Below, piece after piece: positions 3,287 to 49,157 of a stretch of 64,000 nucleotides of DNA (positions are counted from its first letter, which is position 1; every line of letters begins with the position of its first letter). The stretch lies in NCBI RefSeq assembly GCF_021919125.1, contig NZ_CP083439.1, forward strand, positions 2,604,001 to 2,668,000. The letters run 5' to 3'. The position numbers and the translations under genes are program-made. This stretch comes from Clavibacter sp. A6099 (GTDB lineage Bacteria; Actinomycetota; Actinomycetes; Actinomycetales; Microbacteriaceae). The notes beneath the pieces were generated by a model. That model was not told the origin of the DNA, made no database searches, and saw nothing but the letters and a program-made list of their open reading frames with translations.

Positions 3287-4819
3287 GTGACGATCACCCC
3301 TGCCCGCCGTGCCGCCCCCGCGCGCATCGGCGCCCTCACCGCGGCAGCCGCTGCCGTGGTGCTCTCCGTCGGCATCGGCGCACCCGCCGCGCACGCCGCC
3401 GCCGACCCCGCGCTCCAGCCCGCGCCGACCGCGAGCGACCACCTCATCACCGACGTGCCCGGCCTCGTCAACGGCCGCGAGCTCGGCGCGTTCACCGGTC
3501 TCGACGGGCGCACGGTCGCCGCGAGCCGCCTGATCCGCACGGAGTCGCTCGACAAGATCACCGCGGCCGGCGCCGCGACGCTCGCGAGCGTGCACCACGT
3601 CGACCTCGTGATCGACCTGCGCACGCCCGGCCAGATCCAGGCGAAGCCCGACGTGCCGATCCCGGGCGCGAAGACCGTCGCCATCTCGATGTTCGGCGCC
3701 GACGGCGACTACCCGGACGACACGGTCATGTACCGCGACCTCATCGACAAGGGCCACGTCGACGCGGCGGACCCGGGCGTGATGATCAGCGCGTACCGCA
3801 GCATCCTGCGGGCCATCGCGTCGCACACCGGCAACGGCACGATCCTCATCCACTGCTCGCACGGCATGGACCGCACGGGCACCGTCATCGACCTGCTCGA
3901 CCGGATCCTCGGCGTCGGCAGCGCGGACATCCTCCACGACTACCTGCTCTCGAACACGCAGCTCGGCGTCGACTGGGCCAAGCCCGCGCTCCTCCAGGGC
4001 ACCTTCGAGGCGGGCATCGCGTCGCGCTACGCGGGGATGGACTCCTACATCCGCACCACTCTCGGCGTCGACGACCAGGAGATCAGCGCCCTCCGCGCGC
4101 AGCTCCTCGTCTCGGACGACGCGGCAGCCGCCTCCATCACCGTGGGCGGCGTGACCGTGCCGCTCGGCGACGCGGCCGGATCCGCCGGGGCCGTCGTGCC
4201 CGTCGGCCTCCCCGCACTCACGGCCGCCGACGTCCACGTCACCACCGCGGACGGATCCGCCACGTCGTCCGTCGCGGTCGACGGGCGCACGGTCACCGTC
4301 ACGGTGACCGCGGCGGACGGGCGCACGACGCGCACGTACCGGATCACGGCCGGGCTCGCGGAGATCGCGCTGCCTGCGGGATCCGCGCCGACCGCGGGCG
4401 GCACCGTCGCGTTCCGCGCCGCCGGCCTCACCCCGGGCGCGACCTACCGCGTCATCCTGCACTCCACGCCGACCGACGTCGGATCCGTCACCGCGGCATC
4501 CGACGGCACCGCGTCGGGCACCGTCACGATCCCCGCGGGCACCGACCCCGGCACGCACACGCTGACCCTCGTGGACGCGCAGGGCCGGGCGGTCTCGGAT
4601 CCCGCGACCATCACCGTGAGCGCCGCCGCCGCCGTCTCCGCCGTCACGGCGACCGCGACCGGCGCGCGCCACGCGGGCCCCGCGGTCGCGACCGGCGGCG
4701 CGTCCGTCGCCGCCGACCCGTGGCCGGGCCTCGCGCTCGCGGCCCTCGGGCTCGCGGGACTCGCGGCGATCGCGGGCCGCACGGTCGCGCGCCGTCGCGC
4801 CGCGCTGCGCAGGCCGTGA
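3287..4819 (+). CDS. Secreted tyrosine-phosphatase-like protein with cell-wall anchor-like C-terminus
   Basis: A 510-aa exported protein. It has an N-terminal signal peptide (about residues 1-38, cleavage near AHAAA) and a Y_phosphatase3-type domain at about residues 50-270. Two Ig-like beta domains follow (about 275-440), then a hydrophobic segment near 475-495 and an Arg-rich tail. The phosphatase signature HCSHGMDRTG has catalytic Cys190 and Arg196; the usual Lys after Gly is Met. The upstream family motif appears as NGRELG. The C-terminus looks like a sorting signal with a degenerate VATGG in place of LPXTG/LAXTG. GTG 3287 is preceded by AAGGA with good spacing. Its stop overlaps the sortase start (GTGA), so the pair is probably co-translated. 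It could act on host or wall phosphoesters; the substrate is unknown. Confidence 0.85.
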   Translation: MTITPARRAAPARIGALTAAAAAVVLSVGIGAPAAHAAADPALQPAPTASDHLITDVPGLVNGRELGAFTGLDGRTVAASRLIRTESLDKITAAGAATLASVHHVDLVIDLRTPGQIQAKPDVPIPGAKTVAISMFGADGDYPDDTVMYRDLIDKGHVDAADPGVMISAYRSILRAIASHTGNGTILIHCSHGMDRTGTVIDLLDRILGVGSADILHDYLLSNTQLGVDWAKPALLQGTFEAGIASRYAGMDSYIRTTLGVDDQEISALRAQLLVSDDAAAASITVGGVTVPLGDAAGSAGAVVPVGLPALTAADVHVTTADGSATSSVAVDGRTVTVTVTAADGRTTRTYRITAGLAEIALPAGSAPTAGGTVAFRAAGLTPGATYRVILHSTPTDVGSVTAASDGTASGTVTIPAGTDPGTHTLTLVDAQGRAVSDPATITVSAAAAVSAVTATATGARHAGPAVATGGASVAADPWPGLALAALGLAGLAAIAGRTVARRRAALRRP

Positions 4820-9090: not shown

Positions 9091-9413
9091 CGGTCGATCA
9101 TCCCATCCGGGGCGGGGCGGCCCGGGCCATCCCCGTCCGGGTCAGGCAGGCCGGAGCGGTCGCCGACGTGGGGAGGATCGTCGACCTCGGCGTCGCCCGG
9201 GTCGCTCCAGCCGCGGATCCAGTTCACGATCCCGCCGCCGATAGAGACGAGCCCGAGGGGCACGCCGAGCAGGACGATGGTGTCGAAGCGCCCTCCGTTG
9301 CTGATCTCCCCGAAGGCGCCCGTGAGGCCGAGCACCGAGACGACGCACAGGACGACGCCGAGGATCACCAGCCCGAGGGTCTCGTTCCCGCGCGACCCCT
9401 TCCGCAGGAACAC
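9087..9413 (-). CDS. Small two-helix membrane protein
   Basis: A 108-aa protein of unknown function. After a basic start (MFLRKGSRGNE) it has two hydrophobic helices (about residues 12-32 and 43-65) and an acidic, Pro/Asp-rich cytoplasmic tail. It is the first gene of a two-gene unit and overlaps the start of rsmI by four bases. The overlap and open frame support it as real; I know of no described family. Confidence 0.7.
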   Translation of the reverse strand: MFLRKGSRGNETLGLVILGVVLCVVSVLGLTGAFGEISNGGRFDTIVLLGVPLGLVSIGGGIVNWIRGWSDPGDAEVDDPPHVGDRSGLPDPDGDGPGRPAPDGMIDR

Positions 9414-45268: not shown

Positions 45269-46264
45269 CTACTTGGCGCCGACGGTGGCCGACGCGTTCG
45301 ACTCGTACGACGTGTTGGTCGACTCGAAGAAGTTGACGAGCTGCAGCGTGTCGTTCGCCGTCGCCATCCACTTCGCCGGGTTGGAGACCTTGTACTCGGC
45401 CTCGAAGCCGAGCTCCTCCAGGCGGCGGTCGGCCAGGTACTTCACGTACTGGTTGATGTAGTTCGCGTTGAGGCCGAGGATCCCGTTCGGCAGGAGGTCG
45501 CGGTTGTACTGCTCCTCCATCTCGACGGCGTCGAGGATCATCTGCTTGATCTCGGCGGCGAACTCCTCCGTCTGCAGGTCGGGGTTCTCCTCGAGCACCG
45601 TGAGGATGAGGTTGATCCCGAACTTGAGGTGCAGCGACTCGTCGCGCACGATCCAGTCCATGAGCGAGCCGAAGTTGCGCAGCAGGTTCCGCTGGCGGAA
45701 CGACAGCGACACCATGAAGCCCGAGTAGAACCAGATCCCCTCGAGGATCACGTTGTACGCGACGAGGTTCCGGACGAAGTCCTTCTTGCCCTCGGTGGTG
45801 GTGATGTCGAGGGTCTGCTCGGTCATGCGCTTGATGAACTTGACCTCGAACTCCTCCTTGCGCGCCATCGACGGGATGTCGACGTGGGAGTTGTACGCGG
45901 CCTCGCGGTCGATCGGGAACGTCTCCAGGACGTACTCGAACGACATGCAGTGGTTCGCCTCCTCCCACATCTGCTTCGCCAGGTAGAGGTGGCACTCCGG
46001 CGCGTTGATGTAGGGGTAGACGCCGAACGCCAGCGCCTTGTTCACCAGGAGCTCGTTCGGGTTGAAGTAGCTCATGAGGAACGTGATCGCGTGGCGCTCC
46101 TCGTCCGTCATCTTCTTGAAGTCCGCGATGTCCTCGCCGAGCTGGATCTCGTTGGGGAACCACGTGTTGGCGACGGCCTGGTCGTACAGGTCCATGGCCC
46201 ACTGGTAGTTGACGGGCTTGAGGAGGAGGCCCTCCTGGATTCCCGTGCCGAGGATCTTCGACAT
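45269..46264 (-). CDS. nrdB: Ribonucleotide reductase R2 subunit, class Ic type (Phe at radical-Tyr site)
   Basis: Generates the oxidant for ribonucleotide reduction in NrdA. The 331-aa ferritin-like protein has metal ligands Glu71, Glu102, His105, Glu175, Glu209 and His212, with E. coli-like spacings: 31 between the first two and 34 between Glu175 and Glu209. The residue four after His105, where E. coli has radical Tyr122, is Phe109 (EEANHCMSFEY). The first ligand is Glu rather than Asp. Phe there and Glu first are features of class Ic R2, known from Chlamydia with a Mn/Fe cofactor. Cofactor identity is inference. The gene follows nrdA and a 25-codon ORF by 76 bases. Confidence 0.9.
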   Translation of the reverse strand: MSKILGTGIQEGLLLKPVNYQWAMDLYDQAVANTWFPNEIQLGEDIADFKKMTDEERHAITFLMSYFNPNELLVNKALAFGVYPYINAPECHLYLAKQMWEEANHCMSFEYVLETFPIDREAAYNSHVDIPSMARKEEFEVKFIKRMTEQTLDITTTEGKKDFVRNLVAYNVILEGIWFYSGFMVSLSFRQRNLLRNFGSLMDWIVRDESLHLKFGINLILTVLEENPDLQTEEFAAEIKQMILDAVEMEEQYNRDLLPNGILGLNANYINQYVKYLADRRLEELGFEAEYKVSNPAKWMATANDTLQLVNFFESTNTSYESNASATVGAK

Positions 46265-46340: not shown

Positions 46341-46418
46341 CTACTGGCAGGAGTCGCACTGGAGCTCGTCCATGGGGTCCATGGGGACGACGTAGTCGCC
46401 GAACGTGTCGTCGTTCAT
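46341..46418 (-). CDS. 25-aa peptide carrying the NrdA-type CxxC redox tail
   Basis: A 25-codon ORF whose ATG overlaps the nrdA stop by one base (TGATG), in the -1 frame relative to nrdA. The peptide is acidic (starts MNDDTFGDY) and ends MDELQCDSCQ. A CxxC near the C-terminus is exactly what class I NrdA proteins use to re-reduce the active-site disulfide, and the NrdA encoded upstream lacks it. Three explanations remain: a free peptide made by reinitiation, a fusion made by -1 frameshifting, or a sequencing error. It is too short for ordinary gene callers. Confidence 0.7.
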   Translation of the reverse strand: MNDDTFGDYVVPMDPMDELQCDSCQ

Positions 46419-48940
46419 CAGCGTGCACCTCCCACTCCGCCGAAGCCGAAGCCCTTGCGGGGCGACGGGGCGGACTGCGGGGCCGGGGCCTCCGCGGTCG
46501 CGGTGGATGCGGGAGCCGCCGCGGGCGCGACAGCGGGTGCGCCGCCGCCGAATCCGCCGAAGCCCTTGCGCTTGGTGCCGTCGGCGTCCTGCGACTTGTC
46601 GACCTTCACGGTCGACTGCTCGGCCGTGTGACGCGGCTTCATGTGCAGGTAGTACGTGGTCTTGACCCCGCGCTCCCAGCCGGCGAAGTAGATGTCCATC
46701 ATGTCGCCGAGGTCGCGCGTCTCGAGGTACATGTTGCGGCTGATGGCCTGGTCGATCCACTTCTGCGCGCGCGCCGCGACCTCGAGGAACGCGTACGGCG
46801 AGAGCTGGAAGCTCGTGCGGTACGTGGCCTTGACGTGGTCGGGGATGGCGGCGATGTTCTGGATGTCGCCCTGGCTGCGCAGGATGTTCTCGCGCACGGT
46901 CTCCCAGATGCCGAGCTCCTGGAGGTCCTTCACCAGGTTCCGGTTGACCTCGAGGAACTTGCCCGAGGAGGTGGAGCGGCTGAAGATCTGCGAGAACTGC
47001 GGGTCGAGGCCGGGCGTGGTGCCGGCGACGAGGCCGATGGAGGCGGTGGGCGCGATCGCCATGAGCGTCGCGTTGCGCATGCCGCCCTTGACCTTGGCGC
47101 GCAGCGCGTCCCAGTCGAGGCGCGTGGTGCGGTTGACCTTGACGGGCACGCCGCGGTCCGCCTCCATGAGCGCGATCGAGTCGAGCGGCACGAGGCCCTC
47201 CGACCAGCGGGAGCCCTCGAAGTTCGGGTACGCGCCGCGCTCCTTCGCGAGATCCGCCGACTCGTCGATGGCCGCGTAGGAGACGTGCTCCATGATCTCG
47301 TCGATCAGGTCGTACGACTCCTCCGACTCGTACGAGAAGCCGAGCTTCTCCACGATGTCGGTGAAGCCCATGACGCCGAGGCCCACCGCGCGGTTCTGCT
47401 GGTTGGAGAAGTCCGCCTCCTTCACGCTGGAGCGCGTGATGTCGATGAGGTTGTCGAGCTGGCGCACCGCGAGGCGCGCGCTCTGCTCGATCTTCGCGAA
47501 GTCGACCTTGCCGTCGGCGAAGTGCTGCGACAGGTTGATCGACGCCAGGTTGCAGACGGAGACGTTGTCCTCGTCCTGCGGCAGCGTGATCTCGGTGCAG
47601 AGGTTCGAGAGGTGGATCGTGCCCGTGTTGTTGTTCAGGGCGCGGTTGTTGATCGTGTCCTTCCAGGTGAGCCACGGGTGGCTGGTGGTCTGGAGCGAGA
47701 TGAGGATCGACTTGAACTGCTCGCGCGCCTTGATGCGCTTGAACATCCGGATGCGACCGGCCTCGGCCTCGCCGACGTAGAACGCGTAGCGCTCCGAGAA
47801 GGCCTTGCCGTACAGCTCGTTGAGGTCGGAGACCTCCAGCGGGTCGAAGAGGTACCAGTCGTCGTCGTTCTGCACGCGCTTCATGAACTCGTCGCTGATC
47901 CACACGGCCGTGTTGGCGGTGCGGGTGCGGCGGTACGGGTCGCCCGAGTTCTGGCGCAGGTCGAGGAACTCGGGGAAGTCGAGGTGCCAGTTCTCCATGT
48001 AGAAGCACAGGGCGCCGAACTTCTTGCCGCCGCGGCTGACGGCGCGGAGCACCGAGTCGATGGTGTGCATGAACGGGATCGGGCCCGTGGAGGTGGTGTT
48101 GTTCGAGCGGATGGGCGAGCCCTGCGCGCGCAGCTTGGAGACGGAGAGGCCGATGCCGCCCGTGCCCTTGGTGAGCCACATGACGTCGCGCGTGGTCTTC
48201 GCGATGTGCTCGATGTCGTCCTGCATCTCCATGACGAAGCAGTTCGCGAGCTGCGGGTAGATGGTGCCCGCGTTGACGAGGGTGGAGCCGGCCGCGAGGT
48301 ACTCGAGCTTCGACATCTTCTCGTAGAAGGCGATGGCCGTCTCGGTGGGGTTCTGCTCGTTGAGCGTGAGGCCCATCGCGATGCGCATCCAGAAGTACTG
48401 GGGCACCTCGAGGGCGTCGCCGTTGCGGCCCTTGATGCCGTAGCGGTTGTTCAGCGTGACGACGCCGATGTACTTGAGCAGCTCGTCGTGCGCGGGCTCG
48501 AGGGCCTGGGCGAGGCGCTCCAGGTCGAACAGCTGCACGAGGCGGGAGTCGAGGAGCATCTCGTCGACGCCGCGCTGGATGTTGCGGGCGAAGTGCTCCG
48601 CGTGGAGGCGCTTGAGCTCCTCGGGCGACGAGTAGTCGCCGAGGACGCGCTTGTAGATGGTCTTGAGGAGCAGGCGCGCGGCGACGGTGTCGAACGCCGG
48701 GTCGTCCTTCACGTTCTGGAGCGCGACCTGGATGACGGCCTCATCCAGCTGCTGCGTGGTGATCCCGTCGAAGAGGGTGATCTCCAGCTCGGACGCGATC
48801 TGCGTGACCCAGCCGATGTTCTCGTCGAGGCCCTGCGTCGCGTCCTCGATGGCCAGGTTGATGCGGTTCGCGTCGTACGGCTCCCGCGTGCCGTCGCGCT
48901 TCACTACGGTGATGGACACTCTGCTCCTCGTCGTCTTCAT
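46418..48940 (-). CDS. nrdA: Ribonucleoside-diphosphate reductase large subunit, without C-terminal cysteines
   Basis: Reduces ribonucleoside diphosphates to deoxy forms. The 840-aa protein has an N-terminal ATP cone (VVKRDGTREPYDANRIN) and the catalytic barrel with Cys234, Cys448, Glu450 and Cys463 (LANCF, NLCTEI, VSVCNLASIN), plus the radical-path tyrosine pair TTYYLHMKP. After residue 785 comes a flexible Ala/Pro linker with two RKGF(G)GFGG-like repeats, and the frame stops with no tail cysteines. The missing CxxC is in the next ORF. ATG 48940 lacks a Shine-Dalgarno; GTG 48919 follows GAGGAG closely and may be the real start. NrdR-like boxes lie upstream. Confidence 0.93.
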   Translation of the reverse strand: MKTTRSRVSITVVKRDGTREPYDANRINLAIEDATQGLDENIGWVTQIASELEITLFDGITTQQLDEAVIQVALQNVKDDPAFDTVAARLLLKTIYKRVLGDYSSPEELKRLHAEHFARNIQRGVDEMLLDSRLVQLFDLERLAQALEPAHDELLKYIGVVTLNNRYGIKGRNGDALEVPQYFWMRIAMGLTLNEQNPTETAIAFYEKMSKLEYLAAGSTLVNAGTIYPQLANCFVMEMQDDIEHIAKTTRDVMWLTKGTGGIGLSVSKLRAQGSPIRSNNTTSTGPIPFMHTIDSVLRAVSRGGKKFGALCFYMENWHLDFPEFLDLRQNSGDPYRRTRTANTAVWISDEFMKRVQNDDDWYLFDPLEVSDLNELYGKAFSERYAFYVGEAEAGRIRMFKRIKAREQFKSILISLQTTSHPWLTWKDTINNRALNNNTGTIHLSNLCTEITLPQDEDNVSVCNLASINLSQHFADGKVDFAKIEQSARLAVRQLDNLIDITRSSVKEADFSNQQNRAVGLGVMGFTDIVEKLGFSYESEESYDLIDEIMEHVSYAAIDESADLAKERGAYPNFEGSRWSEGLVPLDSIALMEADRGVPVKVNRTTRLDWDALRAKVKGGMRNATLMAIAPTASIGLVAGTTPGLDPQFSQIFSRSTSSGKFLEVNRNLVKDLQELGIWETVRENILRSQGDIQNIAAIPDHVKATYRTSFQLSPYAFLEVAARAQKWIDQAISRNMYLETRDLGDMMDIYFAGWERGVKTTYYLHMKPRHTAEQSTVKVDKSQDADGTKRKGFGGFGGGAPAVAPAAAPASTATAEAPAPQSAPSPRKGFGFGGVGGAR

Positions 48941-49109: not shown

Positions 49110-49157
49110 TCACTATATATGCGGGCACCCGGCCGGGCCCAACCCCATATGTAGTGG
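49110..49157 (-). promoter_or_regulatory. Paired NrdR-box-like sites over the nrdA promoter
   Basis: Box 1 (49110-49125) has TCACTATATAT followed by a degenerate half. Box 2 (49142-49157) is ACCCCATATGTAGTGG. Both match the NrdR consensus shape acaCwATATwGtgt, and their starts are 32 bases apart (three helical turns), the known spacing of paired NrdR boxes. On the minus strand TTGGGC (49142-49137) and TATAGT (49117-49112) could be the -35 and -10, so the boxes would cover the promoter. Confidence 0.75.

Follow-up and report, generated by a model that had tools for sequence, protein, structure and literature searches.

A 64,000-nucleotide stretch of the Clavibacter sp. A6099 genome (contig NZ_CP083439.1, positions 2,604,001 to 2,668,000 of the forward strand), here called the window, carries the genes of a class I ribonucleotide reductase (RNR), the enzyme that supplies the precursors of DNA. 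RNR turnover is taught as requiring a tethered C-terminal arm. The catalytic subunit NrdA in the window ends before a redox tail, and a candidate tail is encoded by a short open reading frame (ORF) of its own, so that the gene order on the minus strand is nrdA, tail ORF and then nrdB. The features of the locus are as follows.

49110..49157, minus strand: NrdR-like operator pair 5' of nrdA, predicted by matrix score, with 16-bp boxes and a 16-bp spacer.
46418..48940, minus strand: nrdA, class I RNR catalytic subunit, 840 amino acids, with an ATP-cone and without a C-terminal CxxC (ORF reading, profile searches).
46421..46579, minus strand: Gly/Ala/Pro linker of NrdA, approximately residues 788-840, with GFG motifs (ORF reading, comparison with relatives).
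46427..46433, minus strand: Shine-Dalgarno-like GGGAGGT for the tail ORF, within the nrdA coding sequence (read by eye).
46341..46418, minus strand: linked free-tail ORF, 25 codons, MNDDTFGDYVVPMDPMDELQCDSCQ and then a stop (ORF reading, conservation in relatives).
45269..46264, minus strand: nrdB, class I RNR radical-generating subunit, 331 amino acids (ORF reading, profile searches).

NrdA ends in ...APRKGFGFGGVGGAR and a stop, and a scripted count found zero cysteines in its last 50 residues. The A of the TGA stop (46420-46418) doubles as the A of the tail-ORF ATG, which lies 8 nt from GGGAGGT as judged by eye. The peptide has 25 residues, two of them cysteines, and ends in LQCDSCQ. ORF reading therefore bears out what the sequence-only reading had described, namely an 840-residue NrdA without a C-terminal cysteine and an overlapping 25-codon ORF in the -1 frame that ends CDSCQ. 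Pfam matches to PF02867 (E 3.6e-165), PF00317 (7.1e-20) and PF03477 (5.7e-16) correspond to a barrel, an all-alpha domain and an ATP-cone. The protein scores 1733 bits against NCBIfam NF005101 (cut-off 988) and 380 against the class II model NrdJ_Z, under the cut-off of 399.95; its best models are class I, and the adjoining nrdB supplies the class I partner (PF00268, E 4.4e-75). In the motifs NCFVME, NLCTE, VCNL and TTYYL, the positions C, C, C and YY are matched in an alignment with Pseudomonas aeruginosa NrdA (5im3), and we take them to be the active-site cysteines and the radical-transfer tyrosine pair. The tail peptide reached a best E of 0.04 in Pfam, below the cut-off, and had no match in NCBIfam; PHROGs held no entry matching two other tail peptides. 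The 6-kb stretch around nrdA is 95% identical at the DNA level to Clavibacter sp. VKM Ac-2873.

We then sought the arrangement in 199 genomes of the Microbacteriaceae, the window genome included. A window-type NrdA is present in 91 of them; 101 have a distant RNR match only, presumably the class Ib NrdE (29-32% identical where listed; that of G176 reaches only E 4.8e-9), and 7 have no match. From the 91 genomes, 85 nrdA loci (L001-L085) were read, the remaining six holding partial genes only. A tail ORF lies directly 3' of nrdA in 79 of the 85 (78 scored by script and L079 by hand); one contig (L073) ends 4 nt past the nrdA stop, hence a linked tail is present in 79 of 84 assessable loci. All three active-site cysteines are conserved in 85/85 NrdAs, the C-terminal 50 residues are free of cysteine at all 84 loci scored, the window's included and L079 excepted, and an [RK]GF[GA] motif stands at the C-terminus in 84/85. 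L079 is unlike the other family loci read in lacking an nrdA stop before the tail start.

Tail copies were searched for across whole genomes with a degenerate DNA pattern for PM[DE]xxxCxxCQ-stop, with at most one mismatch in the family counts. The tail is present in 91/91 genomes with NrdA, in 0/101 with a distant match only and in 2/7 without a match (91/0 versus 2/106, Fisher p ~2e-55, a statistic that ignores relatedness). The reversed pattern, used as a control for chance, gave 0 matches across the 199 genomes, and the occurrence of the tail pattern is far above chance. By these sequence counts, the tail strictly co-occurs with tail-less NrdA. Most NrdA genomes (81/91) hold two or more copies: one copy is found in 10, two in 63, three in 13, four in 4 and six in 1. 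The second copy of the window genome, MDYDNNDTVGGYAIPVDPMELLQCDSCQ, lies outside the window, 424 kb from nrdA (L124, G000:C1:3074556-3074591), where it neighbours MaoC-like genes and has an NrdR-like operator pair. A MaoC-like gene is close to 30 of 51 unlinked tail loci, the others being without it within the fetched stretch, which indicates that a common old locus exists. At least 120 tail loci were named, 102 of them Microbacteriaceae by title, 17 with no family in the title and one from a Cellulomonadaceae metagenome-assembled genome. In a class-level sample of 394 genomes, searched with 0 mismatches, the tail was found only in the window's own genome (1/394).

The five loci without a linked tail (L048, L081, L083, L084 and L085) are informative, since all five genomes have a tail elsewhere. 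Outright loss of the tail is thereby ruled out as an explanation for them (unlinked copy in 5/5). In G053, G177, G138 and G015 the sole tail copy is unlinked to nrdA. In G123, G053, G177 (88% complete) and G015, a search for PF02867 proteins found the tail-less NrdA alone, as it did in the window genome; G138 has two, with a second RNR large subunit at G138:C1:15217-16824. A search for NrdD in the window genome and the five genomes without a linked tail found none (0/6). In five of these six genomes, then, the sole class I or class II large subunit found is an NrdA that appears to depend on a separate peptide. G123, which is without a linked tail, carries a divergent copy ending ...DPMDELNCDSCQ at position 9255 of its contig 2 (L125), possibly a plasmid.

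The sequence-only reading had also raised programmed -1 frameshifting and a one-base assembly error, and to these we add readthrough of the stop; each would join the tail to NrdA in one polypeptide. The tail ORF in the window is indeed in the -1 frame, which is open far upstream (a 612-codon ORF), and the same frame is used in 65 of 78 relatives. In DNA of high GC content, -1 frames often stay open over long distances. Among the same 78 loci, 8 have the tail in the nrdA frame beyond the stop and 5 have it in the +1 frame. Tail starts, inferred as the nearest start giving at least 19 codons (ATG in 58, GTG in 20), most commonly lie at +2 (30) or -1 (13) from the first base of the nrdA stop, and reach 92 nt beyond it among the offsets listed. 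No single frameshift or readthrough device could bridge junctions that vary this much in frame and spacing. Programmed frameshifting is further contradicted by tails far from nrdA (424 kb in the window genome), by the four genomes whose single copy is unlinked and by the phage contig L227. There the tail gene (MAPQNKDNVDGYYVPQDPMDLLQCDSCQ) is found upstream of an nrdA that belongs to the phage itself, ends in APRKGFGFKSAN and has no tail. The arrangement recurs at 79 loci, which contradicts an assembly error. On frame diversity, unlinked-only genomes and phage gene order we rule out these explanations, to which we give virtually no chance.

The origin of the tail is indicated by 29 nrdA loci (L086-L114) from sister families within the order, with NrdA at ~69-75% identity. 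The sequence-only reading had named, as a finding that would count against it, a single nrdA frame running unbroken through the CxxC in related strains. Such a frame is absent from 84/84 family loci scored (L079 left out), but is found in 28 of these 29 sister loci, where the tail is fused to NrdA on the same polypeptide and ends CPVDPMExLQCESCQ or close to it. At the 29th, L103 (~4215-4289), the nrdA frame is broken before the cis tail by an error, decay or a second split, and the tail lies in another frame. Across the order, 30 genomes besides that of the window match the tail pattern with 0 mismatches, one copy each as opposed to the often multiple copies of the Microbacteriaceae, and all 30 matches sit just past the nrdA match. 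Of these, 26 read as in-frame fused tails; the others are the broken frame of L103 and three judged by position only (G336, G365 and G447). The cis-tailed NrdA of L106 ends ARRGFGGLQPHVDVIDGEECPVDPMERLQCESCQ, whereas split NrdAs stop soon after the GFG motif, and the window linker stops where cis-tailed relatives continue into the tail. In a FastTree phylogeny of 114 NrdAs, based on the part before the linker, split (85) versus cis (29) is one change, with Shimodaira-Hasegawa-like support of 100. The redox tail was thus apparently split from NrdA once, in the ancestor of the NrdA-bearing Microbacteriaceae. We also considered that the peptide might be attached to NrdA after translation, by ligation, an isopeptide bond or a stable disulfide, and so work as a cis tail, with the conserved [RK]GF[GA] at the NrdA C-terminus as a possible docking or joining site. 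The GFG motif is also present in 27 of the 29 cis loci, however, and is therefore no mark of a junction; we regard attachment as very improbable.

Taken together, these comparisons establish the tail, as far as sequence can, as an ORF of its own that is conserved, often present more than once and homologous to the tail that the sister families carry fused to NrdA. We conclude that the redox tail of a class I NrdA has very probably become a separately encoded, trans-acting small protein of ~20-30 amino acids, and the free trans-acting dithiol that the sequence-only reading had offered as one option is strongly supported. By 'free' we mean encoded separately. Our data suggest that tail-less NrdA in this large soil, water and plant lineage is recharged by a free-moving peptide. 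The peptide would be translated as such, its CxxC dithiol would enter the NrdA active site in trans, and it would reduce the active-site disulfide after every turnover. The cysteines of that disulfide are presumably the equivalents of Escherichia coli C225 and C462. Thioredoxin or a similar donor would recharge the peptide, and extra chromosomal and phage copies may raise the supply of mobile reductant for the same enzyme.

NrdR is encoded in the window genome at G000:C1:2031496-2031927, and the published spacing of NrdR boxes is 15-16 bp, with 14-17 bp tolerated, in the available part of the source (PMC12051234). An example operator before an unlinked tail reads acactacatgtagtgg, 17 bp, tcccgttatatagtga, with boxes of 16 bp, and the stand-alone tail of the window genome has a pair similar to that of nrdA, with a spacer of 17 bp versus 16 bp. 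A TATA-type core occurs in the operator of 31/32 unlinked genome loci, and from those 31 sites we built a matrix, applied with a threshold of 10 bits. This threshold is reached by 53/68 named unlinked tails versus 1/68 shuffled sequences, by 1/19 extra cellular copies and by 0/50 linked tail copies; no NrdR-like operator at this threshold was found before viral tails (0/118). Among nrdA 5' regions, with spacers of 15-17 bp, it is reached at 82/85 split loci (spacer of 16 bp in 69 of the 82) and 20/29 cis loci, and within the nrdA genes themselves no score exceeds -6.6. NrdR-type operators are thus predicted before nrdA and most named unlinked tails.

Tails are also carried by at least 120 predicted viral contigs, and the figures that follow are among the contigs listed. 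Of 120 viral tail copies, 88 lie in a frame of at most 60 codons between stops, and for 119 the nearest start that gives at least 20 codons yields an ORF of 20-35 codons. Neighbours were classed in these contigs together with three named phage stretches, one representative per cluster being named by PHROGs. Upstream (n = 115), a terminase-like cluster (35) and holin-like clusters (21 and 5) make up about half of the neighbours, and downstream 34/118 are portal-like. In Clavibacter phage CMP1 and Pontimonas phage phiPsal1, an unannotated tail ORF stands right after the hol/holin gene, and in Pseudanabaena phage Pan2, which has a cyanobacterial host, a 27-residue 'hypothetical protein' (L412, 21250-21333) contains the variant tail CPNDPADLVSCESCQ; the tblastn matches of these three are weak alone (E 0.007 to 0.4). 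The nrdA frame of L227 (9906-13314) has 1136 codons, and its NrdA homology is broken by an unrelated stretch, which we take to be intein-like. The tail motif also ends longer small ORFs, of ~49-93 amino acids from the first ATG, in cellular (L165, L166, L362 and L369) and viral (L220, L261 and L278) DNA, as if grafted onto other carriers.

The many phage copies that adjoin structural or lysis genes, and the scarcity of RNR subunit genes on the 120 viral pieces (nrdA on one, nrdB on four), would also fit a different role, in which thioredoxin or a different donor reduces NrdA without an intermediary and the peptide acts in regulation linked to deoxyribonucleoside triphosphates (dNTPs), in metal or thiol buffering or in competition for reductant. 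In the available part of PMC4520616, the class II subunit NrdJa alone is slightly active with dithiothreitol, from which it follows that a tail-less RNR may be reducible by a small thiol. Such a role leaves aside the co-occurrence of peptide and NrdA (91/91 versus 0/101), the near-identity of the peptide to the cis tail and its RNR-type operator, all of which tie it to NrdA, and we consider it unlikely. Returning to the free redox tail, we think it somewhat probable that this multi-copy mini-protein is a mobile electron carrier of class I RNR, with chromosomal isoforms under NrdR separately from nrdA, and that phages of these bacteria carry copies that drive or redirect host dNTP synthesis. 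The copies in question would be viral tails of 20-35 codons. Many of these stand between a terminase and a portal gene or follow a holin gene, and some would be grafted onto other small proteins.

Several observations weigh against a free redox tail. Without a tether, a 25-residue peptide would not be concentrated near the active site as an attached tail is, and it would have to bind tightly or be highly expressed. A third cysteine (CPVDPM) is present in 28/28 cis tails and absent from most trans tails, and at L079 (~3512) the nrdA frame, without its usual stop, overruns the tail start in a different frame. The co-occurrence of tail and NrdA is uncorrected for kinship among genomes. Scores below 10 bits were obtained for 15/68 named unlinked, 18/19 extra cellular and 118/118 viral copies, and the 31 training sites of the operator matrix share some species with the test set. 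The pN/pS ratios (nonsynonymous to synonymous polymorphism) of the last 18 codons, 0.26 for linked (76 distinct copies), 0.21 for unlinked (50) and 0.23 for viral tails (112), count in favour of a free tail, but they carry no correction and are biased towards low values by the choice of copies with the DP..CxxCQ motif. At positions free of the motif, conservation among distinct copies is 96-100% for the P before xDP, 88-98% for the L two residues ahead of the first Cys and 91-94% for the Q just ahead of it.

The closest precedent is the split class II enzyme NrdJa/NrdJb of Pseudomonas aeruginosa, in which, according to the available text, NrdJb carries out the thiol-disulfide exchange and is required in vivo (PMC4520616, PMC5704485). 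In both systems a redox-active C-terminal part of RNR is on a separate gene. As far as that text describes it, NrdJa/NrdJb is a class II adenosylcobalamin enzyme and NrdJb a cysteine-rich zinc-finger domain, unlike the class I NrdAB found here, with nrdB present and a peptide of 20-30 amino acids that usually has two cysteines; multiple copies, NrdR-like operators and phage copies are features of the Microbacteriaceae tail. Accordingly, to the extent of our searches, the design can be called new for class I, but not for RNR as a whole, given that NrdJb is known. RNR genes in pieces are also familiar from phages, and nrdA-a/nrdA-b of Aeromonas phage Aeh1 is an interrupted nrdA. In the available part of PMC3653736, phage RNR breaks are linked to introns, inteins, endonucleases or fragmentation, whereas in the Microbacteriaceae only the redox tail is separate; the word 'cysteine' is absent from the main text of that paper. 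Electron delivery to class I NrdA is likewise rewired in Facklamia ignava, where, in the available part of PMC6187632, a glutaredoxin is fused to NrdB; there a redoxin is fused on, and here the tail is cut off. Our searches of the open-licence PubMed Central literature found no earlier report of a detached class I NrdA tail, and the available parts of PMC9669993 and PMC3653736 do not mention one.

Based on our findings, we suggest that a free tail would separate tethering from redox relay, and that re-reduction of a class I RNR can be tested by supplying a synthetic 25-mer or leaving it out. In the Microbacteriaceae, the supply of reductant to RNR would become a quantity regulated separately by NrdR. 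Our results further suggest a minimal phage gene, of ~25 codons, that may be able to feed host dNTP synthesis.
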